From Entophlyctis helioformis (taxonomy: Eukaryota; Chytridiomycota; Chytridiomycetes; Chytridiales; Chytriomycetaceae), in contig JAHLKH010000095.1 in assembly GCA_025526915.1 (NCBI GenBank), positions 33,741 to 97,740 on the forward strand: a stretch of DNA of 64,000 bases, read 5' to 3'. Below the pieces are notes generated by a model. The model saw only the letters and a program-made list of their open reading frames with translations. It was not told the DNA's origin and made no database searches. This document shows, piece by piece, positions 6,514-64,000 of this stretch. Numbering within the stretch: the first letter of the stretch is position 1; every line of letters begins with the position of its first letter. A program made the position numbers and the translations under genes.

Positions 6514-8336
6514 ATGCGAGCAAAACATCGAGGAGCAGCGCTGCGCCGGACGGTGCTGTGGACATTGCTGGCTGCGCTGCTGTCGCTGTTTGTGGCCATT
6601 CCAGGCAAGCGCCTCTGTCCCGCTGGCCGTCTTCTGCAGCTGCGCTAGGCCGTCCATGCGGCCGTGTGCAGACGGCCGTCTGTTGCCACAAACAAGCCGT
6701 CTGCTCGGCAGCCGTGTGATGGATGCCGCCAGCCAGCGAGTGCGCCTGTGTGGGCGAGCGAGCGAGCGAGCAAACGTACTGACATGCGGCCCGTTGCACG
6801 CCTGCAGCCAACGCACAGCGAGGAGCCGCGCCGGGAGCCCAAGTGTCGCAGTCCACCAGTGAGTCTTGCCACGGCGCCTGCTGCCTGCTGCCTGCTGTGT
6901 GTGCCTGCTGTGCGGACACTGGCCAGCCAAAGCACAGCAAAGCAAAGCACCGACGCTGACCGCCGCCTGTTGCACAGCATTCTCGTTCACGGTGCAGCCC
7001 GTCGGCTTCACGGCGCCAGGCCCGGTGGTTGCAGCCACCACGGCATCCATCACGCTGCGCTGGACGACAGACACCTGCGCGGGCGCTACCGACGGCCGCG
7101 GCAACGCCGTCAACAGCGGCACGCCTCGCCGCATCAACGGCCAGTGCTTCGACTCCAACAACAGGAACATCATCATCGACGACACCAGGACCTTTCCGCA
7201 GGGCCTGTCGGCGCTGTCTCTGCGGAGAGGCATTGGCAGCAACAGCCCCGAGCAGTACGATCTGCTCAAGTCGGTGACCAACTCGCCGGTGAGACGCCAC
7301 CTTGCGCACATCTGCTGTGCCTCTGCTCGCTCGACTGCCTCGAGTGCCTCGATGCTTCTGTTGTCGCTGTGGCCGTGCCTGCACGGCCGTGCATTGGACT
7401 GTGCGCATGCCAGCGGTTGTGCGCCTGTCGACGGCTGGTTGCCACTGGAGGCGCCGACGGGGAAGGAGTTGACGCAAACTCCGCCTCATGTCTGGGTGTA
7501 CTCCTGTGCGGCCATGTGCGGCCCTGTGTGGTGGTGGCACCAACAACGCGTTGCACGCCACATCCAGCGACAATCTCCGTTGTGGCTGCCTGCCAACCGC
7601 ACTCCAACGTCATCGTGCTCACTCTCTGTCATCCATCTAGGCGCTCGCTGGTGTTGCCAGAACCATCACCATCACCAACCTGAACCAGTACCCTTCAGAC
7701 TACTATTCTCTCTATGTCGCCGCAACAGACTCGCGTGGCAACCTTATTCAGGGCCAGTCGCCGTTCTTTGCCATTAGAAACGTAGAAGAGCTTCCCAGAA
7801 TTGGTAAGCCATGCAGCTCATCACCACGGCTTGCCGTTTCTGTCGCTGTATGCCAACCATTGCTTGCCATGCCAGGATCGATGCAACTCTGGAGCCCTCT
7901 GGACGGCTCGTATTGGCTCGCGAATGCCGAATACCGTGTTCGCTGGGAGCTGCTTCCTCTGGCAACCGTCCCCGACTATTTCAACGTCGATCTGCTCACA
8001 GCCGACGGCCAGTTCATTGCGCGCCTGCTCGAAACCGTGCCGCCCAACACCGGCGACGTTCTTCTTGGCGAGTCGCGTCCGCTCAATTATACCATCTGGT
8101 CCATCGACCCTGCTCTCCGCAACAAGCGGTTCAAGCTCTTTGTCACGGGCGTGTTTGTTGTCGGCGGCGTTGTGCAGCCCATTACCGAAGCCAACCCGCA
8201 GGTCACGTCCGGCGTGTTCTTTGTTGGGCCGGTCAAGCCCAAGACGTCTGCTGCGTTTGGGTCGTCGAAACAGATGGTGCCCGTGTCCGCTGCCGCACTC
8301 GCGATCCTTCTTTCTCTTGCTACAGCATTTTTGTAA
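6514..8336 (+). CDS. secreted GPI-anchored surface protein
   Basis: Four exons: 6514-6604, 6978-7288, 7641-7803 and 7875-8336. The N-terminus is a signal peptide (RRTVLWTLLAALLSLFVAIP) and the C-terminus is a classic GPI-attachment tail: a small-residue stretch then a terminal hydrophobic run (MVPVSAAALAILLSLATAFL) with no cytoplasmic residues. The mature part has beta-rich, Ig-like or Kre9/Knh1-type character, for example QLWSPLDGSYWLANAEYRVR followed by WELLPLATVPDYFNVDLL, a wording typical of fungal Ser-Thr-rich GPI-anchored proteins. The first intron uses a GC donor: AG|GCAAGC at 6605, in phase with the acceptor at 6977. Probable role is at the plasma membrane or wall; the specific function is unknown. 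Confidence 0.75.
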
Positions 8337-16987: not shown

Positions 16988-17136
16988 ATACACAGGTAGT
17001 TTGACTACTTTTGGCTCTCGATCGAAAGCTGCATGGCTGTGGCGCTCAGTGTTGCATGACCATCCGCTTGCACCGCGTGAACAAGGTCGCGTGATGACGG
17101 ACATCGTGTGACCGTTTGAGATGGTGAGCATCGCGG

Positions 17137-18538
17137 AGGGGGGGGGGGGGGGGGGTAATTGATTTCGTTCCCATAGAAAACCTTGCGCCGGCACCTGATT
17201 GGCCGGCTGGTTTGCCTCGAATTTTGTTCAATTTGGCATCCAATTTCCAATCTTTTTGAATCCAATTTCATATTCTTGTCCGAATTCCCAGTCACTCTGA
17301 GCAGCCTACAGTCGATGCCTTCTCAAGTCGTGGTTGCTTTGACGCTGGCTTGTGGACTGCTGAGCCTGTCCAAGGGGCAGCAGTTGGTTGCGTGTTGGTA
17401 ATGACACCAAGGACTGTCCTGCCATTGCCTGTTGCAGCTGTTGGCCTTCTGCGTCCAGGCGGCGCTCTTGTGCGTGCTGCTGAGGCGGCCTGCTGCAATG
17501 TCCGAACGACCGACGTCACAGCCAACACAGACGCACTGGCATCTGCTGCTGCTCTCTTCCGCTTGCTTGGTGCTCTTTGGCGGCTGGCTGTTGGCGTGGC
17601 AGCTACAGCAACGGCTGGCTGTCCAGGCTCGTCCGCAACGTCCTTGTCGTCGTCAAGATTGTCAAGGCACACAGTGTCAACAGAGTCGCAACTGTTGACA
17701 GCCATCACACAAGAGGCAGACGAGCTCACCAACGAGGACATGGATGGATCACTCGGCGTATCGTTGAGCTGCCGCGTATCGTCGAGCTGCTGTAAGGCAT
17801 CGCGCTTGGCTTGGTCTGACTTTGAGAACTGTCGAGGCGATACACAGAGAATGCCTGCAGCAATCTGCTCACACATGTCAACCTCTGTCCTGGCTGCCTT
17901 GGTGTAGACAGCAAGGTCACAGCGACGAGTGTCTTTGCAACAGCCAGCAGCGCAGATAATCAGCAAGTCTTGCATTCAAGGCACGATGCCGTCGCACCCC
18001 GTCATCCACAGCCAACAGCCACGCCCACCTGACTTGTCAGCATGCCCGCGAATGCAATGACGAGCAGCATGCACAGTCTCGGTCAACAACAAAGGGCTGA
18101 TCGACTGCAGGCTGCAAAGAACAAGTCGTCTCAGACCTGCTGGCGACTGAAGTCAACAGCATCCAAAGTCGGCAATGAAGACACCGTGCCCAAGGAGAAA
18201 CTCGCCTTGCACCATCATCACAAGAAAGTGCGACACATTTGTGAGATCTGGGATGACTACTCGGTCAAAGATTGGAGGGTTGTCATGGTGTTGGTTGGCA
18301 ATCTCTGTTCCAAGGAGCCAGATAGCAATATGGCGCATCTCAGTACTGCTCAGAGCACAAAGGAGGGCTGGGCATCAGGCTGGAGGTATTCACACGGATG
18401 AGATCTAGCAATTCCATGCGCACTTGGTGATTCCAACTGCGGCATGGACCCTATGAACAAGGCTGGATGGGCAACCAGTGCTGTGGCTGCCATGCCAACA
18501 CCCAAACCCCGTGGAGCATCAAGCAAGCCTTTGGTTGC
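17137..18538 (+). repeat. conserved leader repeat, copy 1
   Basis: Matches 58101-59495 from the G-tract to a common end at CAAGCCTTTGGTTGC. Within 18042-18401 versus 58999-59358, I count about eight substitutions and no indels in 360 bases. After 18538 similarity becomes patchy (18560-18700 resembles 59690-59810). A 227-codon minus-strand frame (17975-17292) and a 119-codon plus-strand frame (18042-18401) exist. The minus frame is broken in the other copy; the plus frame is kept but matches no family I know. More likely regulatory or RNA-encoding than protein-coding. Confidence 0.75.
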
Positions 18539-19187
18539 TCATTCAACCAAGGCATCCAGGTCTGCTGTGGTGCGGTTGTCTCTGCAGCATGCAAAAGAGT
18601 GCCGGCTGGATGCAAACAGGCGCCAGCTGAGACTGCCACAGGCAGGAGACCCTTGGTGTGCCGCCCAGTGGCCATCAAGCCACCACCTCCAAGAGGGCTG
18701 CATCAACGCCGTCTGTTCACTGATCAGAGTGACTGTGTATCCATGAATATTCAAGTTGAGTTTGGTGTCAACTGATCAGATATCAAGGCGAGCCAGCTGC
18801 GCATGCTCATCGACAAGAGCACACGCCTCGTGCCAGACTCACCGCCGAGGCCAGCTTGCCATCCACGACTGCGCTTGTGGAGGATGAGGCATGGTGATCT
18901 TTTGCAATCAACACTCCAGATCAACGCGTTCATGTGCCTGGGTCGCGTTTTGGTGATGCGCCACTGATCATGAATCAAACATTGCAAATCTCAGACACAC
19001 AGATGTGATCATCTGTGGCAGTCGCAACAACACGGCCGCTGTGTTTGTCATAAAGAGAGCGGTTGGCCCGTCTGTGGTTGCTCGACCATCCACATACACT
19101 GATACATTTTTGACGAGACTCCCTGTCGCTCATTGCCCTCTTCAGCACACCCTTGCCGTCCATAACGCAACCCCATACACGCACAAC

Positions 19188-19188
<1 letters not shown>

Positions 19189-19223
<35 letters not shown>

Positions 19224-19300
19224 GCGCACGCCGCACAATCACGCACGCACAACCACGCACACGCACAACCACGCACACGCACAACCGCGCACACGCGAGC
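19189..19300 (+). repeat. CA-rich tract before the FEN-Fanzor start
   Basis: A pure (CA)n run of about 33 nt (19191-19223) followed by CGCACA/ACCACGCACA variants ends six bases before the ATG at 19306. The second element has a longer version at 60486-60650. It is probably 5' UTR or promoter sequence. Confidence 0.7.
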
Positions 19301-19305
19301 ACGAC

Positions 19306-22300
19306 ATGGGGGTCCCTGCGGTTGTTTCGTGCGCGGTGGAGAATGGCGGCGGCAGCGTACACAAGGACGTGCCCTGGTCCTTGGTGTCAAAGCTTGTGCT
19401 TGGCAGCGCACGACTGTCACAAGATCCAAGCGACACCAACACGGCCACACCCAGCCACTGCGGCGCTTTCCTTGTCGATGTGATGAGTGTGTGTTTTCCG
19501 CACTTCAGGAGAGGAGGGTCCGATCACCCGTTGTCAAAGGCCGAGTGGATACCGATCCTCAAGCCGGTACTCAGCTCGTTCACGGACAAGTTTGGCCCCG
19601 AGTACGCCTACATGTTCCACGTTGACGGCAGGCTCGGCGACTCTGGGATTAAGATTGTCCACAACGGCCGTGCGATCAAGGTCCTGAATGCGGTGGGCAC
19701 AGTTCTACGGTGTATTCGCAGACGCCGCAAACGCAAGAGATACAAGCGCTTATCCAAGTATGTCCACTTTGTCCTGCCGCATCAAGGCGATTCTAACTCT
19801 CAGTCAATGATCCAGGAAAGAGAAGCGTGCGCTGCTGCTCTCGTTCACGCTCACGCACAATGACAAGCAGCTGATTTACGAGGCGATCGCGGAGATCTTC
19901 AGTTCTGAGCCGCGGCGTGCAGTATGCTGGTGCAAGCACGAAGCGGACGTTTGCATTGCCCGCCATGTAGCCTACCATGCAAGCAAGCCAAGGTATAGAT
20001 CGCCATGGCAACTGTCTGTTTTGATTGACGGCTAACAGTCTTTGTCTGCAGCAGCAACATTCCCATTGCCGTCATTTGTAACGACTCTGATCTCGTGGCA
20101 CACTGTGCTGGACGTTGTCCTGTCATCATGATGTCCACGCGGAACGCGGAGGCCACCAACCTGCGGTCTTTCAACCATTCAGGCATTGTATCTCTTGCGT
20201 CTGCCCTCGGAGTATACGAGTTCCCTGGAGCTTGCCAACTTGTGGTTGCGTTGAGCAAGAGTGACTATTTCGATTGCTACGGGCGTGGTGCGTGCGATTC
20301 CTGTCTTGATGCTCTGTATTGTCGTCCAAACTGTGGTGTTGACTAACACGTGTTGCTACTCACATTGTCTTGCAGGTCTGCGCACTGCCGTCAACACCGT
20401 CAACAGGTACGTCGAGGAGGCAGCGCGCAAGAGGAATATCACGCCGGAGGAGTTCTGTGCCCTGCTCCACACCCCCAAGATTGCCAGCGACTTCAAGAAG
20501 GATGTCAGGGCCGCCTACTCTGACGAGTTGTTGGCGATCGGAGGCGAGGACCTCGTCAAGTCGTTCCTCAATGCCTTCTCCGTTTTCGTGTACCACGACG
20601 AGTCGGGAAACATGCCAGCCAGTTCAAAGCCCCAAGCAGCAACAACGGTCAATCTGGCGATGTGCAAGGGCAGAGGCAAGTCATTGCATGACTGGCCAAG
20701 CACGTGGCACTGTAGATGCATTTGCATGCATAGCACCATACTGACCATCCATTGCTACGTGGCAATGACAGCAGCCAGGCTGCCAACACGACCGCCGCGG
20801 CTCAACCAAGGTACGCATGCATGCATCTCTTGAAGTCTCTCACATTGCTGACTCTGCGTTCCTGTCTTTGATGTCATTGTTGGATCGCGATGCAGATGCT
20901 CATCTGCTGGCTGCCTCCTTGTACACTCCAAGTGGCAAGAACGCAATCCTGACTCCGACATTGTGCACCTGACGCAGAAGGATATCGACGGGCACCTCGA
21001 CAAGATTGTCAACAACGGCGAAATGGCCACAACTTTTTACGAGGTCAAGCGATGTCCGATTGCATTCGACTGCATTGTCAAGCACGTGCCAGGTTACCTT
21101 GCTCGCAACCCCGATGGAGTCGCGGGCCGAGATATTCTAGCCAAGATCAGCAGGACAGCAAGTGCGCAGCTGTTGGAGCTTGTCTGTGAGCAATCCCTTT
21201 TACCGACAGTACGCGCAGAGCTTGGTCGACTTGATCGGCTTGTTTGGGACACACATGTACGTTGCAGCATGACTTGGATGCATGTGCATATCTCACCTTG
21301 AACTGTCTAACTCAATCCACTTGCATTGGACAGGGCGCAGCTCGGAGGTTGAAGGTGCAGCTGGGCAAAATTGTGAATCCTTGCTGCGTATCCTTTCAGG
21401 ATATTTCAACTCCACGTACGTTTGGCTTGCATTGGAATGACTCGACGCCATGTACTGACAACACCTTCTATGCTGAATGTGATACTCAAGAACCAATAAC
21501 GCAGCCAGGCACGCAGAAAGGCAAGCAAAAGCCCAAGCAGAAAGGCAAGCAGAAAGGCAAGGTCATCAAGCAGGACGATCCCCAGAAATCCTTGGCCGAG
21601 ATCCACAGAAAGGCCACCGAACGGCTGAACGACCTGAAATCTCGCACGGATGGCGAATCAGTGACACTTGTCGAGCAGCTGAACGAGGCCATCAAACTGC
21701 TAGAGTCGATCATCAAGGAAGCCTCGGTGCGTCTTCATCTTGACTGTCTGTGTGTGCATGTACTGACTTGTCGCGATCACTCATTTCTCCAATTGGCAGG
21801 AGGCTCGGCCTCCAAAGCGGCGCAAGCGGCGTAAGCGACCACAGCCATCTGTTGACGCTCAGGCAGAAGAAGTACAGCCCGTGGTCTTTTCTCTCAATCG
21901 ACATTTAGACACCAAGACGACGGTTAGTTCTGATGTACCATTGGTGCTTGCATATGCATTGTGTGCACTCGGAATGCATTGCTCATGCTGCATCCAACCT
22001 CCACAGCCACGACTTCAATTCACAAAGAAGCAGGAGGCCGCGCTCATGAAGAGAAGCACATTGCAAGCTGCAAAGGCTGCGACACTGAAGGCCATCAAGG
22101 CCAACAAGGGAAAGTCGAGCCGGTTTGCCCGTAGTAGTTTGCCTGGTGGCACGAGACAGGGGTAAGTGATGTATGCTGTGCCATTAGCCTTGAGTGCTCT
22201 TGCTGACATGCGTGTTTTGGCAGAATCGTGCGTCGCTCACGATGGGCACTACATCTGCTGATTCGAAAGCTGGGTCGCATTGTTACAGGGCCACTCATGT

Positions 22301-25300
22301 CGCTCTCTGCGGCGATCGGCAGCAATGATCAACAAACGGCAGAGCAAGCAACCAATCAACCTGCTGTGGATGCGCCAGATCAGCCTGCCGTGGACGAGCC
22401 TGATCATCGTGGCGCGAGAGTGCTGCTTGAGGTACGATTTAGGATCGCCATTCTGCCTGCATGCATGGCTTTGCATGTACTGACTCAGAGGTTGGCGTGG
22501 TGCGCAGAAAATGTTGTCGGGCAATCCAGGAAGCGCCAAGGTCTATGGCATCGAAGCCAGGAAGACGCCAAAGATATGGACGCGGCGTCTGATCATCGAG
22601 GACACATTCGTAAAGGTGTACTCATTCATCGTCGGTGTTCGGCATGCTGGGTTCGTCGTGATTGGCGCCATCGTCGAAGAGCTGCTTGATCTCAGCCCAG
22701 ATGCGCCGCTTCCGCCCAAGTACCACGTGTACAAGTGGCTTGATGGCAAGACGACGCGGTATTGTTTCTTGGACCTTGACTTCAAGGGCATCGACGACCT
22801 GGGCGACCATGCCAGCATCGACGGCCTCGGCGGCGTGACCAAGGCGGAGCTCTTCTCGGGTCGATTCACCCTCGGAAAGGACATCACTGCCCGCCTCATG
22901 TACGGCTCGAGTTTGTACAATCACAAGAGCAAGAAGCCTCGGTATGGGCATCCGGTGCAACTGGCGACGGGTACAAGACTTGAGCGTGTTATGTTTGAGA
23001 AGGTCGAGAAGCCCAAGACAGCCGAGGAGTCAAAGGACGCCGAGGACGCCGAGGATGCTGAGGACGCCGAGGATGCTGAGGACGCCGAGGATGCCGACAT
23101 TCACGAGCAGCCTGACGATCACGAGCAACCTGACGAGCCTCAGCAGCCTGATCAGCCTGCAGCAGCAGCACCAACAGTGCCGACATCCAACCAGCTGTTC
23201 ACGGCACTCATCAACAGCACATCTGGCGGCGAGACAACTGTGGCCTGCATCTTTCGCCACCTGTCGTTCATTTTCACCGGCAAGGAGATGGCCAAGCCAG
23301 ATTTGAAGATGGAGACGATCAATGCATGGGTCGTCACTGTCATGCAGTTGATGATCCACCGTGCATGGACACGCGGGATGGTGCAGGCCAGTGCGGACAA
23401 GATGTACGCGGACAAGAATGGCGCGCAGCAGGCCAACACAATCCAGACGGACATGCAGCAGGACGTCACGTATCAGGCAGCTCTACCATACCGCCTGGAC
23501 GACACTCTCTGCGGGAGCGCGACGAATGACATCTTCAACAACCTCGCCAGAGAGGTGAGCACCATACTTGCGCGGCACTACATTGCAAGTCAATTCGACC
23601 TGGCGGTTGGTGCGGCCATCAAGCTTGCTCCCGGAATGTCTCGCGAGCAGGCGAAAGAGTTGGTTCAATCCCTGTTCAAGGAAGCCGATGCCGCCAAGGC
23701 TGCTGCTGCCACCACCAAGGCTGCTGCTGCCAAAGCCACCGCGCCAAGACCATCGGCGGCCAAGAGAGGGAGACAAACGAGTGCGGCGTCAAGCACTGAG
23801 GACGCCGCGTCAAGCCCGACGCAACCCAAGAGAGCAAGGCGCAAGAGTGCAGCGCCAAACCCATCGTCGGCCGGTCTTGACACCACCCCTCCTGCAGCAA
23901 GCCACGAGCAGACCGCGTCAAGCTCATTGTCAGCCACTGACAAGAGCGGCGCGACCAAAAAGGCATGCGGCAAGAAGCCGGCCACCAAGGATGCCGCAAG
24001 GAACAAGAGCACTGTCGTGACCCCGCCAGCATTGCACAAGCTCGTGGCCATCATACGCAACATGTCGCTGTCGACTGTTGGACGCTTCAAGCAGCTGCGC
24101 GATCTCGCTGGAAGAGAGAGCATCAAGCTCTGTCCTCAAGCGGCAAGTCGTGATCCCTTTGTTCTGATCACCGAAACCGTCCTCTTCTGGGCGGTTATGG
24201 GGCTGAAAAGGGATCGCACCAGCAAGTCACAAGATCCCGTCTTGCGAGCATTGAGATCGGAGCTTCTTGCTGCCATAAGTCAGTCACACTGCCTGTCTAT
24301 GCCATCTTTTTATGATTTGATGCTAACAATCCACTCGTCTCAAAGAGCCTGGCTGGCTTCTCAAAGAGCTTGACTGGAAAGACTCGGAGCTTGCTTGCCC
24401 AATGACAAGATCGACAAGGCATTCAGTTCAAGTGACGAGCTGTGCGTCATGGATCTCCTGCTTCCGGGTCTTGCCTCCGATACGCGGCGCTATCAAACGC
24501 CAGCACAGGCCAAGTTGCAGATTGACCCAGCCGACACCGCGGCAGAGGCCAGAGCAACTTCTGATGTGACACAAGAAGCCAAGGCTGACGATCTTCAACT
24601 GGACGACAAGCAGTTGGTGGACGTGATCAAGGCCGAGGTTGATGCTCTTCCTCAAGTGCTACCAACCAAGTCGGTCAGATTTGGCAGCATCAAGACCGAC
24701 GGGAAGAGTGTCTTTCAAACTGTTCTGGAGTTTCGCACAAACCGTCCAAAGTCACCTCGCAGTATGTGGCGTGCTTGGATGCTGTGGTGCACGCATTGAT
24801 TCTGACCACTGCCTTGCTCTGCAGATCCCAACGCGGCGACTTCAGACGAGCAGCCCAGTCACGTTGAGGATGCTGATGACTCTGATTCTGACGATGACTT
24901 GGATGATGGCTTGGATGACGATGACTTGGATGATGGCTTGGATGATAGCCTTGATGGCGAATGTGAGTTGCTGTGCCAATCCAGACGCACACTTGTTGTC
25001 CACACCGACTGACATGCCATCCACAGCCGCCGATCCAGCCGACTCATCAGCCACCAAGCCATACACACCCAATCCTGTAAGTCACTTGCATGCCAACCTC
25101 GCGCATTGGCGCACATGCATTGCACATCCCCCACTCATGCCATGGCATGACAGGTCAAGTGCAACTTTTACGCCTCTCAGCGACTGCCCAATGTTGCTGA
25201 TGCCAACAAGCTGCTCGCCGACAAGGACTTTGTTCGCGTTGTCAGCTTTGATTGGGGCAAGCGGTACCTGTTTGGCGCGTCCAGCATGCTTGTCAATGTC

Positions 25301-26341
25301 AAGGAGGAGACATACACGCTCGAGGCCAACTACGTGCTCTCCTCTGGCGTATTTCATGCTGAGCGTGACCTTCAGCGGTGGTATGCATGCAATGACTCTG
25401 CCACGCGCACTCTTGACCAGATCAACTCACAGTGCCTGCCTCTTGCGCCAGGCTCAACAATCGATATGCCAAGGCGACCGACGTCCACGAGGCCATTGCA
25501 TTCAAGACAGCAAAGCATGCCGATCCAGCCGTCTCAGCAGGCGAGAGAGCCTTTTGGGATCTGCGCTGCCATGCATACTGCACGCCATTCCTGAATGCAC
25601 GGGTACATTTTCTCTGGTTCTGGATGTCCATTGACATGGCCGCCATGCTGCTTGATCGCCTGCTGATTGCACTGGACGGCATGGCATGACATGGCATTCC
25701 ACAGAAAGTCAAGGACAAGCGGTTTGCCATGCGCTGCAAGCGCATGTCTGATCGCGGACAGGCTCTTGAGGGCATCATGAAGCTGGCAGGATCGACCACT
25801 AGATATCGCGCATCCGATGCATCTCAAGGCCTCCCTGTCAGCAACCCAGAGAAGGACATTCCCGTTGTGTGGGCATTTGGCATCGACTTTACAGGCCAAG
25901 GTGGCCGGCATGCTGTGTTTGAGAGGTTTCTCATCAGGCATCTGCGGTCGTCTGGATATGCCTATGTGCGTCTGATGCCATGCCATCCATCCATCCATCT
26001 GTGCACCAACTGACACACGATCATGCACACACACACACACACACACACACCACACACACACACACACAGATCTACCGCTGCAATGAGAACCTGACCAGCC
26101 AGATGTGCCGCAGTGCAAGCAGCGGATCCCATACGAGAACCGCACCAACCTGCGACGCTACGAGTGCATACCATGCGAGACCGTCTACCACCGCGATGTG
26201 CTTGGAGCCACCAACATCGGAATGGTTGCACTGGAGCATCTGCTCTTTGGACAACGGCCGCTCTACTTGACGCACACGCCAGTCGATCCGCCTGTCGTCC
26301 AGCAGCCTCCAGCACCAGATCCGCCTGTCCCGCAGCTCTAG
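19306..26341 (+). CDS. FEN/XPG-like nuclease fused to Fanzor RNA-guided nuclease
   Basis: Early exons: 19306-19757, 19816-19992, 20052-20287, 20376-~20690, ~20789-20819, 20896-21256. They form a FEN1/XPG flap-nuclease domain with every expected acidic site: AFLVDVMSVC, FHVDGRLGDSG, CKHEADVCIAR, VICNDSDLVAH, SKSDYFDCYGRG plus the H3TH-like LRTAVNTVNRYVE. Linker exons (21334-21415, 21491-21726, 21800-21922, 22007-22161, 22224-22431) are basic, with PPKRRKRRKRPQP as an NLS. The 22508-24278 exon, a segment to 24761, and exons 24825-24962, 25027-25076, 25154-25380, 25452-25602, 25705-25965, 26070-26341 form the Fanzor: RuvC-I VVSFDWGKRY (Asp 25250), Fanzor-style FGIDFTGQGGR, ENLTSQMC zinc finger with the displaced Glu, CIPC, and RuvC-III HRDVLGATNIG (Asp 26195). 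About 1,880 residues. Apparent one-base losses near 20615, 24400 and 26108. Two separate genes remain possible; no promoter or stop between them was seen. Confidence 0.78.
23036..23098 (+). repeat. 9-bp coding minisatellite (Glu-Asp-Ala)n
   Basis: Seven tandem 9-mers of the type GACGCCGAG/GATGCTGAG encode an Asp-Ala-Glu repeat inside the large Fanzor exon. They are followed by Gln/Pro/Asp-rich sequence (EQPDDHEQPDEPQQPDQP). Likely a flexible insertion between folded parts. Confidence 0.8.
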
Positions 26342-26470
26342 ACCGCCATCAAGCGACCAGCCAATCCGCCTGTGACCAGCAGCCCAAGACTCCACAACGC
26401 GTCCAGCACCGATCCGCCTGTCGTCCAGCAGCCTCCAGCACCGGATCCGCCTGTCGACCAGCAGCGTCCA
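26281..26470 (+). repeat. minisatellite at the Fanzor 3' end
   Basis: A repeated block (GATCCGCCTGTCGTCCAGCA and CTCCAGCACC units, encoding PVVQQPPAPDPP) occurs at the end of the Fanzor frame and again after the stop at 26341 (26411-26460). Unit copies are nearly identical, so expansion is recent. It may extend the C-terminus or the 3' UTR. Confidence 0.7.
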
Positions 26471-26906
26471 ACACGCAGACAGCGTGCCAGCAAGTCAAGT
26501 GCCACTCCACATGCTCTGACTTCCAGCACAACCACCAACACTTTGAATCGGGGCACCTCCCGATCGACCTAACGGGTCACTTATCACATCATTGTTCAAA
26601 CAATGGTGCAAGGTGAGCCTCTGGTGGGTTGCCTCGCCCGCCTGTCGTCGCATGCTCGTTGCTGACTCGAACCTTGCATCGTGTGATGTGCTTGCTTGCA
26701 TTCGACGCTTCTTGCGACGAATCCAATTCCAAAACGCTTGGTAATTGTTTGAATGTCGGGCCATTTGCCGGCGGTTTGCCGGCATTCCCTCGCCCTATTG
26801 CCCACCCCTCGGACATCGCGTGATCAGTTGGATGAAGGGAGGCAGGGCATCGACCCTCTGGCTCGGGGCATTTACCCCCAACAACCAGCAACCACTGTCA
26901 GCAACC
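26342..26906. other. element right flank / intergenic
   Basis: No gene is visible. It contains the second minisatellite block, a perfect hairpin at 26590-26605 (CATTGTT-CA-AACAATG), and a GC-rich stretch that should hold the promoter of the ankyrin gene. The right boundary of the element must lie here, but I cannot place it because copy 2 runs off the window. Confidence 0.5.
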
Positions 26907-28195
26907 ATGAGCACTCGCAACCTTCCATCAGGGTCAAGTCGATGGGATACCCTCCCGGCCGAATTGCGGCTTCACGTCCTGTACTACTGTACTGCGCTCT
27001 ATGCATTCCTGCATGGCAAGCTTGCCGAACTCGGCCCAGACACGGTTCTGCAGATATGGTGCGAAACCATCCGACTCAACTGGCAAGGAGACCTGCGCCG
27101 ATTGCCCGACGTTTCCAGCAGCTCGATGCATCTGGTCCTTCGAGAGACGATGCCGGTGTGCTCTCGATCCATGTACCGCCGGCTGTGTGCCCGCTTCCCT
27201 CTGCTGTCCGACTCTGGACCGACATCCGCTTCGACGCTCGCACCAACTACTACTCGCTCAACGCCAAGTTCTGTCGCATGACCAGCGGAGCGTCTTGTGA
27301 TCGTTTGCGCCACATACCCATGCGCAACTGCTGGCTCGACAATCTCGACATGACCCATCCGATTGCCCTTGGATGGCAGGCAATCATGGGCGGCCACGTT
27401 GATCTTCTCAGTCATCTTGTCCAGCATCACAATGTCCAGCTCCAGCAGTACCAGTTCTTTGACAACGAATATGCCATGAACCTGGCAGCGTTTGGCGGCC
27501 ATGTCGGGATCCTGCAGATGCTGCATGATGCCGGCAACACGGCCTGCACGACCAGAGCAATGGACGTTGCAGCCAAGCAAGGGCATCTCGAGACACTTGT
27601 CTGGCTGCATGAGCATGGCTACAGCTGCACAACGCACGCGATGGACGGCGCTGCTTCTGCTGGACACGTGGCGGTCATTGCGTGGTTGTGCCAGCACCGA
27701 CGCGACCACTGGACGACAGACGCGATGGATTCGGCAGCCAGCAACGGCCATCTCGATGTGCTCATGTGGATGCACGAGCACTGCCAGTCTGCCCGATGCA
27801 CAACGCAGGCGATGGACAAGGCAGCCGGACGCGGCCATCTCAGCGTTGTCCGTTGGCTGCATGCCAACAGACCCGAGGGATGCACGACACAAGCGATGGA
27901 CCTGTCGGCAACCAACAACCATCTTGATGTGGTCCAGTGGCTGCATGCCCATCGCACCGAAGGATGCACGACGCGAGCCATGGATGGTGCTTGCAAGAAC
28001 GGCCATGGCGCTGTCGTCCGATGGCTGCGTGACCATCGCACCGAAGGATGCAGCCGAGAAACGATAATGACGGCGGCGTGGCAGGGCCACCTCGACTTGG
28101 TCAATGTGCTGGTCAGCACGGTGCGGCCCCCGACAGCACAAAAGTCAGTGATGGACCGCGTGCGCCGTTTGTCTGCCAGTCGTGCAGCTCAATGA
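26907..28195 (+). CDS. ankyrin-repeat protein with F-box-like N-terminus
   Basis: The N-terminus (RWDTLPAELRLHVLYYCTAL ... CSRSMYRRLCARF) resembles the F-box-like head common in chytrid ankyrin proteins. Then come about eight ankyrin-type repeats of about 35 residues built on GHLDVVQWLHAHR.EGCTT.AMD (for example AAFGGHVGILQMLHDAG, AAKQGHLETLVWLHEHG, AAGRGHLSVVRWLHANRPEG). These are typical of large expanded families in zoosporic fungi and amoebae. The head and the repeats are in different frames: one base missing in the CC at 27208-27209 would join them; alternatively a 113-nt intron (27173-27285, ending CATGACCAG) fits and would delete a plausible segment. Protein-binding role inferred. Confidence 0.75.
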
Positions 28196-58100: not shown

Positions 58101-59495
58101 AGGGGGGGGGGTAATTGATTTCGTTCCCATAGAAAACCTTGCGCCGGCACCTGATTGGCCGGCTGGTTTGCCTCGAATTTTGTTCAATTTGGCATCCAAT
58201 TTTCAGACTTTTTGAATCCAATTTCATATTCTTGTCCGAATTCCCAGTCACTCTGAGCGGTCTGCAGCCGATGCCTTCTCAAGTCGTGGTCGCTTTGGCG
58301 CTGGCTTGTGGTCTGCTGAGCCTGCCCAGGGGCAGCAGTTGGTTGCGTGTTGGTAGTGTCACGAAGAACTCTCGTGCGACTGTCTGTTGCAGCTGTTGGC
58401 CTTCTGCATCCAGTCGGCCCTCTTGTGTGTGCTGCTGGGGCTGCCTGCTGCAATGTCCGAACGGGCGATGTCACAGGCGACACAGACTCACTGGCATCTG
58501 CCGCTGCTGGTGTCTTCCGCTTGCTTGGCACTCTTTGACGGCTGGCTGTTGGCGTGGCAGCTACAGCAACGGTTGGCTCTCCAGGCTCGTCCGCAAGGTC
58601 CTAACCGTCGTCAAGATAGTCAAGGCACACAGTGTCAACAGAGTCGCAACTGTTGACAGCCATCGCACAAGAGGCAGACGGGCTCACCAACAAGGTCATG
58701 GATGGATCACTCGGCGTATTGTTGAGCTGCTGTATCATCGAGCTGCTGTAAGGCATCGCGCTTGGCTTGGTCTGACTTTGAGAACTGTCGAGGCGATACA
58801 CACAGAATGCCTGCAGCAATCCTGCTCACTCATGTCAACCTCTGTCCTGGCTGCATTGGTGTAGACAGCAAGGTCACAGCGACGAGTGTCTTTGCAACAG
58901 CCAGCAGCGCAGATGATCAGCAAGTCTTGCATTCAAGGCACGATGCCGTCGCACCCCGTCATCCACAGCCAACAGCCATACCCACCTGGCTTGTCAGCAT
59001 GCCCGTGAATGCAATGACGAGCAGCATGCACAGTCTCGGTCAACAACAAAGGGCTGATCGACTGCAGGCTGCAAAGAACAAGTCGTCTCAGACCTGCTGG
59101 CGACTGAAGTCAACAGCATCCAAAGTCGGCAATGAAGACACCGTGCCCAAGGAGAAACTCGCCTTGCACCATCATCACAAGAAAGTGCGACACATTTGTG
59201 AGATCTGGGATGACTACTTGGTCAAAGATTGGAGGATTGTCATGGTGTTGGTTGGCAATCTCTGTTCCAAAGAGCCAGATAGCGATATGGCGCATCTCAG
59301 CACTGCTCAGAGCACAAAGGAGGGCTGGGCATCAGGTTGGAGGTATTCACACAGATGAGATCTAGCAATTCCATGCGCACTTGGTGATTCCAACTGCGGC
59401 ATGGACCCTATGAACAAGGCTGGATGGGCAACCAGTGCTGTGGCTGCCATGCCAGCATCCAACCGCCGTTGAGCATCAAGCAAGCCTTTGGTTGC
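58101..59495 (+). repeat. conserved leader repeat, copy 2
   Basis: Counterpart of 17137-18538, about 90 percent identical near the left end and about 98 percent over the last 400 bases by eye. The long minus-strand frame of copy 1 is interrupted here, so it is unlikely to encode protein. Confidence 0.75.
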
Positions 59496-59914
59496 AGATT
59501 CAACCTATGAGCATTGTGGAATCGAGGTGATCTGGGTTGATGATCTCAGAAGCCACTTCAACTTGACAATGGGCGTGGCGCTCTGGGTGCCACCAACCCT
59601 TAGATCACTGCCTGTTTCAAGAGGGGTGGCGCTTCTACCGATGCGTGCGCCATTGTGCGCGCCATCACACTCCAGCATCAACCAAGACGTCAAGGTCTGC
59701 TGTGACGCGGTTGTCTCTGCAGAAGAATGCCGGCTGTCACCAGTCGAGACTGCCACAAGCAGGATGGCCCTTGGTATGCTGCCCAGTGGCCATCAAGCCA
59801 TACCCTTCAAGATGGGCTGTAAGCCAGCCTCAAAGCAGAGACGATCTGTTAGATTATTGTCTGTTGGCTTTTCCAATTCCGTGTCTCGCGACTCTCCCTT
59901 CCCCTTGCTGTTCT

Positions 59915-60058
59915 ATTCAATTGCCTGCCACAGACACTGTCGCCTGACAGCTCCTCTTCCTTTTGTCTGTGCCTCAGGTACTTCTTAGAATACACATTCA
60001 ATTGCCTGCCACAGACACTGTCGCCTGACAGCTCCTCTTCCTTTTGTCTGTGCCTCAG
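59915..60058 (+). repeat. 62-bp direct duplication in copy-2 spacer
   Basis: ATTCAATTGCCTGCCACAGA... to ...GTGCCTCAG occurs at 59915-59976 and again at 59996-60058, identical by eye, with about 20 bp between. Absent from copy 1. Confidence 0.85.
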
Positions 60059-60485
60059 CCAAACCCGCAGTTCCCTGTGCCTTTGCCGCACTCAAGCAGG
60101 AACTCTGACACGATCCGCATCAATGCCATCTGTTTGCTGCTCAGAGTGACTGGCCAAGAACAATGAAAATGATATTAAATTTGGCGACCAGTGGCGTCCA
60201 ATCATTGTGCTCGGCCAAAGGGAACAAATGCCTTGTGCCGAGCCCAGCTTGCCATCCACGGCCATGCTCATGGAGGACGAGGCGTGGAGCCCTTTTTTAC
60301 TTGTCCATTGTTCCACTCTTGGGCTGCTCGCTCCAAGGAATGGAGAAGGGATTTCGAGCTTTCCGTGACACTCTGCAACTGTCTGATTGAGCTTTCAGTG
60401 CCGAGGAGTTCTGCACGATCAGCAACCGCACACGCACTCGCACACACACGCGCACAATCAGCAGCCGCGCACGCACGATCAGCAA

Positions 60486-60487
60486 CT

Positions 60488-60574
<87 letters not shown>

Positions 60575-60650
60575 CACACGCACACGCACGATCAGCAACT
60601 GCGCACACACGCACACACACGCACGATCAGCAACCGCACACGCACACACG
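60486..60650 (+). repeat. long CA tract before copy-2 start
   Basis: (CA)n of about 90 nt at 60489-60577, flanked by repeated CGATCAGCAACNGC + CACA units at 60415-60650. Same position relative to the ATG as in copy 1, but expanded. Confidence 0.9.
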
Positions 60651-60656
60651 CACAAC

Positions 60657-63600
60657 ATGGGCATCATCGGCCAGTCTGCACATTCCAGGAAGGCAAAGGC
60701 CGTCGTCGTACACAAGGACGTGCCTTGGTCCTTGGCGTTGACATTTGTGTTGGACAATGCACAACCGCCACGAGATCCGAGCGACACCAACACGGCCACA
60801 CCCAGCACTTGCGGCATCGTCCACGTCGATGTGATGAGCGTCTTCTTTGCGTACTTTATCGGGCAAGGAAGGCCTGATCTACAACCATCCATGGCCGAAC
60901 GAAAGTCAGTCCTCGAGCCAGTACTCGAGTCGTTCATTGGCAAGTTCGGCGACAAGCACACATACGTCTTTCATGTTGACGGCAGGCTTGGTGACTCTGG
61001 GCTTAAGATCGAGCACAGGCACCGTGCCGTCAAGGTCCTGAATGGGGTGGCCACTGTTCTGCGGTGCATTCGCAAACGCGGCAAGTGCAAGAGATCGAAA
61101 CACTTGACCAGGTGCGTCCACTTCTTCATGCCACATCGAGGCGATTCTAACTAACCATCAATGATCCAGGAAAGACAGACAGGCGCTGCGATGTTCGTTC
61201 ACGCTCACGCACGACGACAAGCAGCGTATTTACGAGGCGATCGCGGAGATCCTCGAGACCAAGCCACAGCATACGGCTCATTGGTGTGACCACGAGGCGG
61301 ACGTTTGCATCGCCCGGTGCGCAGCCAAGTATGCAAGAAATCCAAGGTATTGACCGCCATCGCAACTGTATGTTTTGATTGACGGCTAACAGTCTTCATC
61401 TTGCAACAGCGACACACCAATGGTGGTTATCGCCAACGACTTGGACTTGGTGATGCACTGCGACGGCCGCTGCCCTGTCATCACGATGAGCATGCGCAAG
61501 GGACGTGACAGCGAGATCCGGTCTTATAACCATGCAGGTATCCCGTCCACTGCGTCAGCCATGGGAGTGTACGAGTTCACTGGCTCTTGCCAAACTCTAG
61601 CTGCATTCGCCAAGAATGACTTTTTCGATTGCTACGGGCGTGGTGCGTGCGATTCCTGGCTTCATGCTCTGTATTGTCATCCATGCTGCGATGCCGACTA
61701 ACATGCATTGCCACTCACATCATCTTGCAGGCATTGGTTTTGGTGCCAAGTTCATTAACGAGTACGTTGATGGCATGATAAGCAAGCGGGGAATCACGGA
61801 TCTGGCCGGCTTCCGTGATCGCCTCCGCAACCGCAAGTTTTCCGACGACTTCCTGACGGGCCTCAGGGACGCGTACGTCAAGGACTTGTTGCCAATCGGA
61901 GGCGAGGACCTCGCCAAGGCATTTCTCAACGCCTTTGATGTTTTTGTTTACCTCGACGAGTCAGGAGCTTCCGCCGCGGCGTTCAAAGCCCCAAGCAGAA
62001 GCAGCGGTCAATCTCGTGATGCGCAAGGGCAGAGGCAAGTCATTGCGCGATCGGTCAAGCACGCGGCACTGTTGATGCATTTGCATGCAGAGCACTGTAC
62101 TGACCATCCATCGCCACATGGAATGACAGCGGCAATGTGAGGAGACGGAAGTACTGCAGTCGGATGCACAAGAGTTCATTGTCAGACCAGTAGCAGAGAC
62201 AGGCAGGGGAGATGGAGGGTACCTGCAGTCGGATGCACAAGACGACAGCTGGGGCAAGTCTGATGCATCGACTGCTGTCAAAAAGGCGCGATCCAATAAT
62301 GCCCATGCAGCCATTGGCACGCGGCATCAGTGCACAATGAGAGACACATTGCAGCTCGTTACAGGCAAGGCTGCCGTCAAGACCGCCACAGCTCAACCAA
62401 GGTACTCATGCATGTGATCTCTGCAGGTTCTCGCATTGCTGACTCTGTTCTCCTGTCCTTGATGCAACTTTTGGATCGTGATGCAGTTGCCAGCGACATG
62501 ACGGCTGCCTCCTGACCCACTCCAACTGGCAAGAACGACACCCAGACTCCAACGTCGTGCATCTGACGCAGAGCGACATCAACCGGCACCTCGAGACCAT
62601 TGTCAGCAGCGAGCAAATGGACACCGCGTTTGAGCAGGTCAACGGCTGCCCGATCGCATTTGACTGCATTATCAAGCACGCGGCGGGCCGTCTCTCTGGC
62701 AATCATGGCGGAGTGCGGGCCGCGACATTCTGGCGAGGATCAGCCGGGCGGCAAGCGCGCGACTTGTAGCGCTTGCCTGCAAGAAGCCTCCTGTACGGGA
62801 AGCGCGCACGTTGCTCAACAAACCAGCTTGGGCCATTCAGCATGCAACCGTAAGTTTCTGCATGACTTGGACTCATGTGCATTCTCGCCTTGAAGTGTCT
62901 AACCCAATCCACTGTCCATCGAACCAGACTGTCGCTTTGGTGATGCAGACCAGCTGAACAAGATCGTGTATCCTCCATGCGTACCCTTTGAGCATTCATC
63001 AACTCCAAGTACGTGCTGCTTGCATCAGAATGACTTGACACCATCCACTCACAGTGCTGCCTTTGTCGAATGTGCTACTTTAGTACCAGAAACGCAGAAA
63101 AACAAGCAGAAACCCAAGTATCAAGGCAAGATCAACACCCGCCGCGTTTCCTCAAAGACCTTTGCCGAAATCCGCGACAGGGCCATAAAACAGCTGAAAG
63201 ACCTGAAAGCTCAAACGAAGGGCCAACCAGTGACACTTGTCGAGCAGCTAGCCGAGGCTATTGCTCTGCTAAAGTCGATCATCGAGCAGGCATTGGTGCG
63301 TCTCTGTCTACACTGGCCGTGTGTGCATGTGATGACTTGGTGCAGTCGCTCATTTTTCCAATTGACAGGGGCTTCAACCGCCAACGCCGCCCAAGCGTAA
63401 ATGGTCATCTACCAACTGTTGGCCTGGACAAGCACAGCGGGTTGTCTTTTCTCTCAATCGAGCTGCAGACACCCAGACGACGGTTAGTTCTGATGTACCA
63501 TTGATGCTTGCATATGTATTTTGTGCACTCGGAATGCATTGCTCATGTTGCCATCCAACCTCTGCAGGCACCACGCCCTCTCACGCCAGCCATGCTCGCC

Positions 63601-64000
63601 AAGCTCAAAAAGAAGAGCGAAACGGAAGCTGTAGATACTGAGGCAAAGAAAGGCCGCGAAGACCAACAGGCAAAGGTCAGGCCTGCAGCACCGCAGGTTT
63701 CCTTCTGGCACAACGCGAGTGTAAGTGATGTATGCTGTGCGATGTGCTGTGAGAGCACTTGCTGACATGCGTGTTTTGGTAGAGTCGTCATTCGCTCACG
63801 ACGGGCACTACAGCTGAAGCTCAAGAAAGATGAGCCAGATCGTTACCGCGCGATTCATAACACTCCTTGCGGCCATCGGCGACAAGGTGCGGCAATCAAA
63901 AGGAGGCGCAACCAATCTACCCGCTGTGGACGCGACCGATCGACCCGCTGTGGACGCGGCTGATCGTTGTGGCATGAGAGTGCTATACGAGGTACGATTT
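60657..64000 (+). CDS. FEN/XPG-Fanzor fusion, copy 2 (partial)
   Basis: Exons 60657-61111, 61170-61346, 61410-61642, 61731-62034, an enlarged exon to 62401, 62487 to about 62849, about 62927-63019, 63084-63295, 63370-63483, 63569-63720 and 63783-63991. FEN acidic sites are all kept: VDVMSVFF, FHVDGRLGDSG, CDHEADVCIAR, VIANDLDLVMH, KNDFFDCYGRGIGFGAKF (even closer to the FEN1 GIG-P-K-A turn than copy 1). The linker has TPPKRKWS, and VVIRSRRALQLKLKK aligns with copy 1's IVRRSRWALHLLIRK. Protein identity with copy 1 is about 55-60 percent in the first exon. One-base losses are apparent near 62715 and 63830, and the exon at about 62849/62927 is one base out of phase. The catalytic Fanzor half is beyond the window. 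Confidence 0.7.

Follow-up and report, generated by a model that had tools for sequence, protein, structure and literature searches.

A damaged MuDR-like transposon copy in Entophlyctis helioformis with a large gene that probably joins an XPG/FEN-like domain to a TnpB/Fanzor-like nuclease

The window analysed here is a stretch of 64,000 nucleotides from the chytrid Entophlyctis helioformis (assembly GCA_025526915.1, contig JAHLKH010000095.1, positions 33,741 to 97,740 of the forward strand). Within it lies a MuDR-like transposon with terminal inverted repeats, of a high-copy family and represented here by a damaged copy. The large gene of this element, read from its sequence, probably encodes an XPG/FEN 5'-nuclease domain, a linker and a TnpB/Fanzor RuvC nuclease, a reading held with fair but far from complete confidence. 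The view that a single gene joins domains of the FEN/XPG superfamily and the TnpB/Fanzor family is well supported by copies that keep the frame, by selection on the coding exons and by the fixed spacing of the two halves, and both halves keep their catalytic motifs across copies.

The two nuclease-like halves follow each other on one strand, and their splice sites can be joined into a chain of 19 exons, as an earlier note on this DNA had proposed. Of the 18 introns, which range from 58 to 104 bases, 17 are of the GT-AG type, the exception being intron 4 with GC-AG. The note had also seen no stop in the linker; for the joined frame as a whole this is true only when the single-base slips of exons 4, 13 and 19 are disregarded, and not for the window copy as written. 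None of these slips has a counterpart in the other copies covering them (7 of 7 for exon 4, 9 of 9 for exon 13, 7 of 7 for exon 19), and the stop at 26341 marks a shortened tail, with copies L014 and L016 continuing for about 77 residues beyond it. The three slips and the shortened tail mark the window copy as damaged. The limits proposed in the note, 19306-26341, had to be replaced by those of a repeated unit of about 17136-26810; a start of the element at the ATG was likewise dropped, since copies begin near 17136. In the deposited E. helioformis annotation, parts of the XPG half appear as separate hypothetical proteins, P0001-P0007.

Genome-wide searches covered 29.57 Mb in 482 contigs, among which near-identical contigs may raise copy counts. 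The XPG-like exon 3 has at least 150 matches (the best 150 of 158 candidates, a few being pieces of one copy), and the zinc-finger exon also has at least 150 (the best 150 of 250 candidates). For 70 of the 150 zinc-finger matches, an XPG-exon match lies 3.5-9 kb upstream on the same strand, where density alone predicts about 2.1, and 67 of the 70 pairs are spaced 5.4-6.8 kb apart. In the controls, an XPG exon lies downstream of 0 of 150 zinc fingers and on the opposite strand for 2 of 150. Seen from the XPG side, 74 of 150 matches are paired with a zinc finger, and pairing is present in every class of XPG-exon identity (5 of 14 at 90% or more, 3 of 5 at 65-89%, 14 of 25 at 57-64%, 33 of 71 at 48-56% and 19 of 35 below 48%). 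The 80 unpaired zinc fingers likely reflect contig ends, fragments and matches outside the best-150 lists. For 11 of the 150, the nearest upstream XPG exon lies at 9.7-13.1 kb, possibly in copies with a nested insertion. Copies are up to 98% alike.

Comparison of copies reveals how the reading frame has been kept. Gap runs of several bases, counted against the window in 15 copies and per copy rather than per event, have lengths divisible by three in 15 of 16 cases for exons 1-4, 14 of 16 for exons 6-11 and 61 of 92 for exons 12-19, and in 0 of 7 and 0 of 3 cases for introns 1-11 and 12-17; one-base runs were set aside (24, 19, 61, 59 and 6 in these five regions, respectively). The splice dinucleotides of exons 1-12 are kept in the rows covering them, with two exceptions: 6 rows deviate at the acceptor of exon 3 and 4 rows at that of exon 5. 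Both acceptors are restored in the four type-b copies by an AG located three bases downstream, L028 and L029 lying outside this re-examination. Among six copies whose frames were re-examined, L018 keeps an open frame of 811 codons (residues 175-985) that runs from exon 1 across exons 2-11 and into exon 12; its final 20 or so codons lie beyond a slip. In L024 and L025 the frame stays open from the ATG as far as residues 733 and 736, respectively, in each case just past a slip, and the frames of L016, L019 and L030 break earlier.

In the N-terminal exons, the FEN/XPG acidic residues named in the earlier note are present in order as VD, HVDG, EAD, D-S-D and SD. When 9 spliced copies sharing 32-94% identity in pairs are aligned, all seven positions (with D-S/T-D and a final D in general form) prove invariant where covered, the first acid being uncovered in L044; we take these positions to be the active-site acids of FEN1. 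The second acid pair reads E-A-D in the element and E-A-E in host FEN1, and host EXO1 also has E-A-D. Five of the 9 alignment members match the Pfam family XPG_I_2 (PF12813; best E 1.2e-4), the Asteroid-type XPG family, which also ranks first among Pfam families for 7 of 7 database relatives, at 13.9-21.5 bits against a cut-off of 24.2. An hhalign comparison with five FEN1/EXO1/XPG sequences scored 33.9 (E 8.7e-4), whereas 30 column shuffles reached at most 21.2, and it placed E-D, D-D and D in register with FEN1. Copy L054 starts with MGVIGL, which we take to be an XPG-type start.

Other searches were less productive. The single window N-terminal half matched no Pfam XPG family at E up to 10, a range in which HMMER filters drop most matches above 0.1. 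PDB sequence searches returned no XPG match, either with single halves or with the XPG profile of the copies. PF00867 gave 4 matches at 3 places in the whole genome, by eye the host FEN1-, EXO1- and XPG-like genes, and matched none of the repeats. A protein search with the XPG half found 7 relatives at E up to 1, all from E. helioformis (among the best 8000 candidates, with lengths 0.55-1.75 of the query), and a scan of viral contigs with the XPG profile gave 11 pattern matches and no relative. The N-terminal half is thus described as probably a remote member of the FEN/XPG superfamily: the relation to XPG proteins proposed in the note stands, and its "FEN1" label gives way to a distant tie whose best family, XPG_I_2, stays below cut-off.

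The C-terminal half gives clearer profile matches. PF07282 (TNB) exceeds its cut-off with E 1.5e-8 for the window protein and 1.4e-11 when exons 18-19 of L016 are used. NCBIfam guided_TnpB matches 2 of 5 rows at E 2.4e-6, below its cut-off; the other 3 rows stop before the zinc finger. A published TnpB/Fanzor motif runs D-X(125,275)-[TS][TS]-XX-C4-X(5,50)-RD (PMC3627910), and the window protein follows it with D1615, 188 residues, TS-QM, a zinc finger, 5 residues and RD. The RuvC-I aspartate, zinc finger and HRD claimed in the note are all present; L014 has the four zinc-finger cysteines, the first of which is masked by an X in the window translation. A strict Fanzor fingerprint combines DPG at RuvC-I with an alternative glutamate six residues before the zinc finger (PMC10711439). 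The glutamate is present as E-NLTSQM-C, with six residues between, and RuvC-I reads DWG in all 5 copies read (window, L014, L043, L044 and L045). Because the alternative glutamate comes with DWG in place of DPG, the C-terminal half is, on its motifs, TnpB-family and Fanzor-like rather than a strict Fanzor, the name chosen in the note being too precise. No Fanzor came up when PDB was searched with the C-terminal profile, a protein search with the TnpB half found nothing, and a full-length search found nothing among the best 8000 candidates, where repeats in the query may have crowded words. The central region, exons 12-13, may hold a WED/REC part.

Ratios of nonsynonymous to synonymous divergence (dN/dS) show that the coding exons have been under past purifying selection. 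Against L016, L019 and L054, XPG exons 2-4 give 0.12-0.38. Type-b copy L016 yields 0.55 for exon 1, 0.14, 0.27 and 0.18 for exons 2-4, 0.39 for exon 6 and 0.57 for exon 7, and L054 yields 0.12, 0.18 and 0.38 for exons 2-4. Values above 1 occur in exon 11 (2.18 for L019, 1.11 for L043), exon 17 (L043) and exon 18 (L043, L045), and also in exon 13 of L044, where the frame has stops and the value is unreliable. Positive selection on the linker exons, suggested by raw identities, was dropped, as dN/dS there (exon 8 left out) is below 1 against L016 and L019 save for exon 11 of L019. As a separate observation, types a and b (L014 and L016) are 89-92% alike in introns 6-8 and 72-82% in exons 6-8 (window 20896-21800), and the synonymous sites of exons 6 and 7 diverge more than introns 6-8.

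The two ends of the gene also differ in their history. Between the window and copies L043 and L044, synonymous divergence (dS) is 0.06-0.28 in exons 16-18, whereas XPG exons 1-4 are near saturation (1.29-2.55, with two values not computable), and the 3' part has therefore been exchanged or homogenised. This pattern fits gene conversion of the 3' part.

Copy ends and termini define the element. The 5' start of copies lies mostly at 17129-17176 (query 7130-7177; best 40 of 137 candidates) and the 3' end mostly at 26809-26812, beyond which flanks differ (best 40 of 476 candidates, several rows being one copy fetched twice). The C169 copy has a 5' end that agrees at 14 of 14 positions with the reverse complement of the 3' end, GAGGGGTGGGCAAT, and a pattern search for GAGGGG termini gave 18 matches, compared with 0 in the control. 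The window copy, with a G-run variant at its 5' end, showed no long inverted repeats. Nine copies have both flanks: the 9-bp target duplication is perfect in two (C108 and C264, the latter being the element copy to which L018 belongs), imperfect in three (C235 with 8 of 9, C169 with a two-base gap, the window with 7 of 9) and not seen in four (C103, C16, C112 and C116). A tenth copy, C366, falls outside this count, as the stretch fetched ended short of the element end. Terminal inverted repeats and target duplications of about 9 bp are MuDR-like traits.

The coordinates of these features are collected in Table 1.

Table 1. Features of the element and its large gene, in window positions
Feature	Position	Strand	Basis or remark
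Whole transposable element, window copy, about 9.7 kb	17136-26810	+	Copy ends and comparison of termini
Left flank 9-mer AGCATCGCG	17127-17135	+	Imperfect target duplication, 7/9 against 26812-26820
5' terminus GAGGGG(n)T	17136-17156	+	GAGGGGTGGGCAATT or GAGGGGCAGGCAATT in other copies; inverted partner of the 3' terminus
5' region	17156-18700	.	93-96% alike in most scored copies, even where identity in the XPG exon is only about 60%
5' subterminal GCCGGC...GCCGGC inverted motif	17187-17207	+	Read by eye
Putative XPG-TnpB fusion gene, 19 exons, 1885 residues with three slips as X	19306-26341	+	Joined splice sites
Exons 1-6	19306-19757, 19816-19992, 20052-20287, 20376-20675, 20772-20810, 20896-21256	+
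Exons 7-12	21334-21415, 21491-21726, 21800-21922, 22007-22161, 22224-22431, 22508-24278	+
Exons 13-19	24346-24761, 24825-24962, 25027-25076, 25154-25380, 25452-25602, 25705-25965, 26070-26341	+
Exons 1-4, XPG/FEN-like domain, residues 1-388	19306-20675	+	Acid motifs, profile comparison, selection
Exons 5-11, linker, residues 389-790, partly lysine-rich	20772-22431	+	Frame-keeping gaps; all junctions crossed by the open frame of L018
Exons 12-13, central region, no known domain	22508-24761	+	Exon 12 dN/dS 0.35-0.46 against L043-L045
Exon 16, RuvC-I, SFDWG, catalytic Asp at residue 1615	25154-25380	+	Motif reading
Exon 18, stretch before the zinc finger	25705-25965	+	By eye, the classical RuvC-II position has no glutamate
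Exon 19, alternative glutamate (NENLTSQM), C4 zinc finger, RuvC-III HRD; TNB domain	26070-26341	+	PF07282
Candidate guide-RNA scaffold	26541-26811	+	Inferred; conserved hairpin block and fold
3' subterminal hairpin TGCCGGC-GGTTT-GCCGGCA	26766-26784	+	Sequence and fold
3' terminus ATTGCCCACCCCTC, reverse complement GAGGGGTGGGCAAT	26797-26810	+	Termini compared across copies
Right flank 9-mer GACATCGCG	26812-26820	+	Imperfect duplication

Several observations concern the surroundings of these features. Four open reading frames tested in the conserved 5' region gave no credible Pfam match; one frame there, of 227 codons on the minus strand (17292-17975), has a basic stretch and likewise no credible Pfam match. 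A 480-codon open frame at 26753-28195, with ankyrin-like repeats by eye, overlaps the 3' end of the element and extends past it. A second element copy occupies 58101-64000 and continues past the window edge, with its 5' terminus near 58101 and its XPG exon at about 61408-61641. Elsewhere in the genome, at G000:C2:291198-292751 (L002, L048 and L049), the host FEN1 gene has a fragment from the element's 3' side, in antisense orientation, next to or inside its own 3' part.

Fanzor proteins bind and use a guide RNA, and the 3' end of the element carries a candidate scaffold for one. Its hairpin block is common to 19 of 19 aligned copies except for one loop base, and the fold has a z-score of -2.69; an Rfam search of the 3' block gave no match. 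Near the 3' end of many copies stands GGGTCGAATCC, which resembles a B box of polymerase III promoters; the sequence of the window copy is different at this place (26700-26735).

Under the fused, two-nuclease reading, family knowledge suggests that RNA from the 3' end of the element would guide the RuvC half to cut sites lacking the element. The XPG half might then degrade or trim 5' ends or flaps, and repair would copy the element in, or one element onto another, rather than simply joining the ends. The most likely use would be RNA-guided cutting of vacant sites combined with 5'-end processing, by which the element is retained or spread. The transposition step itself may depend on a transposase acting in trans, and the XPG half might alternatively remove flaps during insertion. 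A bolder version makes the protein a self-sufficient RNA-guided homing enzyme, with its TnpB-like half opening a selected site and its XPG half resecting or trimming 5' ends, so that repair copies in the whole 9.7-kb element without a transposase; the 3' half would be homogenised by the same reaction. This version appears quite improbable.

Several results weigh against the fused reading, and most bear on rival explanations of differing probability. Separate transcripts from two adjacent genes of one transposon, one XPG-like and one TnpB-like starting at the ATG at 22511, near the start of exon 12, would account for the deposited models: all seven found cover only the XPG side, and the longest, P0001 (520 residues), ends in exon-6-like sequence. 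Linker exons 7-10 diverge fast and gave no tblastn match in L043 and L044. The frame of L018, however, is stop-free through every linker junction, linker gaps preserve frame, and linker homology is found by tblastn in exon 7 of L051 and exon 11 of L043 and, on visual inspection, in exon 8 of both L043 and L044, which leaves two genes a rather improbable account. Chance neighbourhood, or an assembly artefact joining unrelated repeats, might be suspected from the many copies near contig ends, but with 70 linked zinc fingers against about 2 expected and 0 in reverse order it is hardly credible at all.

What the N-terminal half does, and whether the family still functions, are more serious doubts. 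A half with a PIN/FEN fold might only bind DNA or flaps, or act on RNA in guide-RNA trimming, instead of being a 5' DNA nuclease. Similarity to XPG is only remote, no single XPG half gave a profile match above the curated cut-off, and hhalign reported a probability of only 23%; E-A-D stands where host FEN1 has E-A-E, and P0007, 1 of the 7 database relatives, has lost one acid (N for D in HVDG). Set against this, nine diverged copies all keep the seven acids wherever they are covered and E-A-D also occurs in host EXO1, so that a purely binding or RNA-directed role, while conceivable, is unlikely. Comparable doubt attaches to the idea of dead repeats, a pseudogenised family whose fusion has no present function. 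All 16 rows examined (window included) have frame breaks, no row stays open to its end, and the six extending to exon 19 include no intact one; the window copy has three slips and a shortened tail. Some lesions may nonetheless be assembly errors in repeats, and the rows read are a minority of the genome copies; moreover, 98%-alike copies, two perfect duplications and low dN/dS between subfamilies argue for function until recently. Further results against the fused reading concern selection, the RNA and the transposase. In exon 4, dN/dS rises to 0.52 (L044) and 0.59 (L052). For a guide RNA, RNAalifold gave no real support from covariation (covariation term 0.01; double changes in 5 of 82 pairs). 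A six-frame genome search at E up to 0.01, in which intron-split genes could be missed, gave 0 matches to the MULE transposase PF10551, so the element, with no such match in itself or in the genome, is named MuDR-like only. No IS1595 transposase was found in the genome at E up to 0.01; KDZ has 4 matches on 3 contigs, among which C396 also has a zinc-finger match, a co-occurrence at contig level only.

No report of an XPG/FEN-TnpB/Fanzor fusion was found in the open-access literature (titles, abstract openings and some passages, with most subscription papers and preprints outside), in agreement with the earlier note, which knew of none. If the reading is true, an RNA-guided nuclease and a repair-type nuclease on one chain would reveal how elements of eukaryotes tie cutting to the outcome of repair, and would point to natural designs for editors biased towards copying and away from end joining. 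The element further contributes a TnpB-family protein from a eukaryote that has the alternative glutamate and lacks DPG, which bears on Fanzor origins.

Among known systems, the MuDr-type fungal Fanzor1 elements ROr-4, PBl-3 and MCi-4, as described in PMC3627910, come close: they too combine a TnpB-family protein with a terminal-inverted-repeat element, 9-bp duplications and no MuDR transposase of their own. The element described here differs from them in a gene of roughly 1885 codons in 19 exons and in DWG at RuvC-I, and the term XPG is absent from the main text of that paper. MCi-2 of Mucor circinelloides likewise has variable 5' parts and near-identical 3' parts holding the Fanzor gene; its variable part consists of 5' regions, one with a partial Crypton transposase, whereas here it is the coding XPG half (PMC3627910). 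The acidic motif order of the N-terminal half is that of XPG_I_2 and FEN1/EXO1, with the match below the curated cut-off. SpuFz1, GtFz1 and PpFz1 share the RuvC and TNB/zinc-finger arrangement (PMC11423790, PMC10432273) and, by the rule of PMC10711439, the alternative glutamate before the zinc finger. Most Fz1 proteins measure 600-700 residues according to PMC11423790, whereas the protein predicted here would reach about 1885 and carry a nuclease-like domain at its N-terminus.

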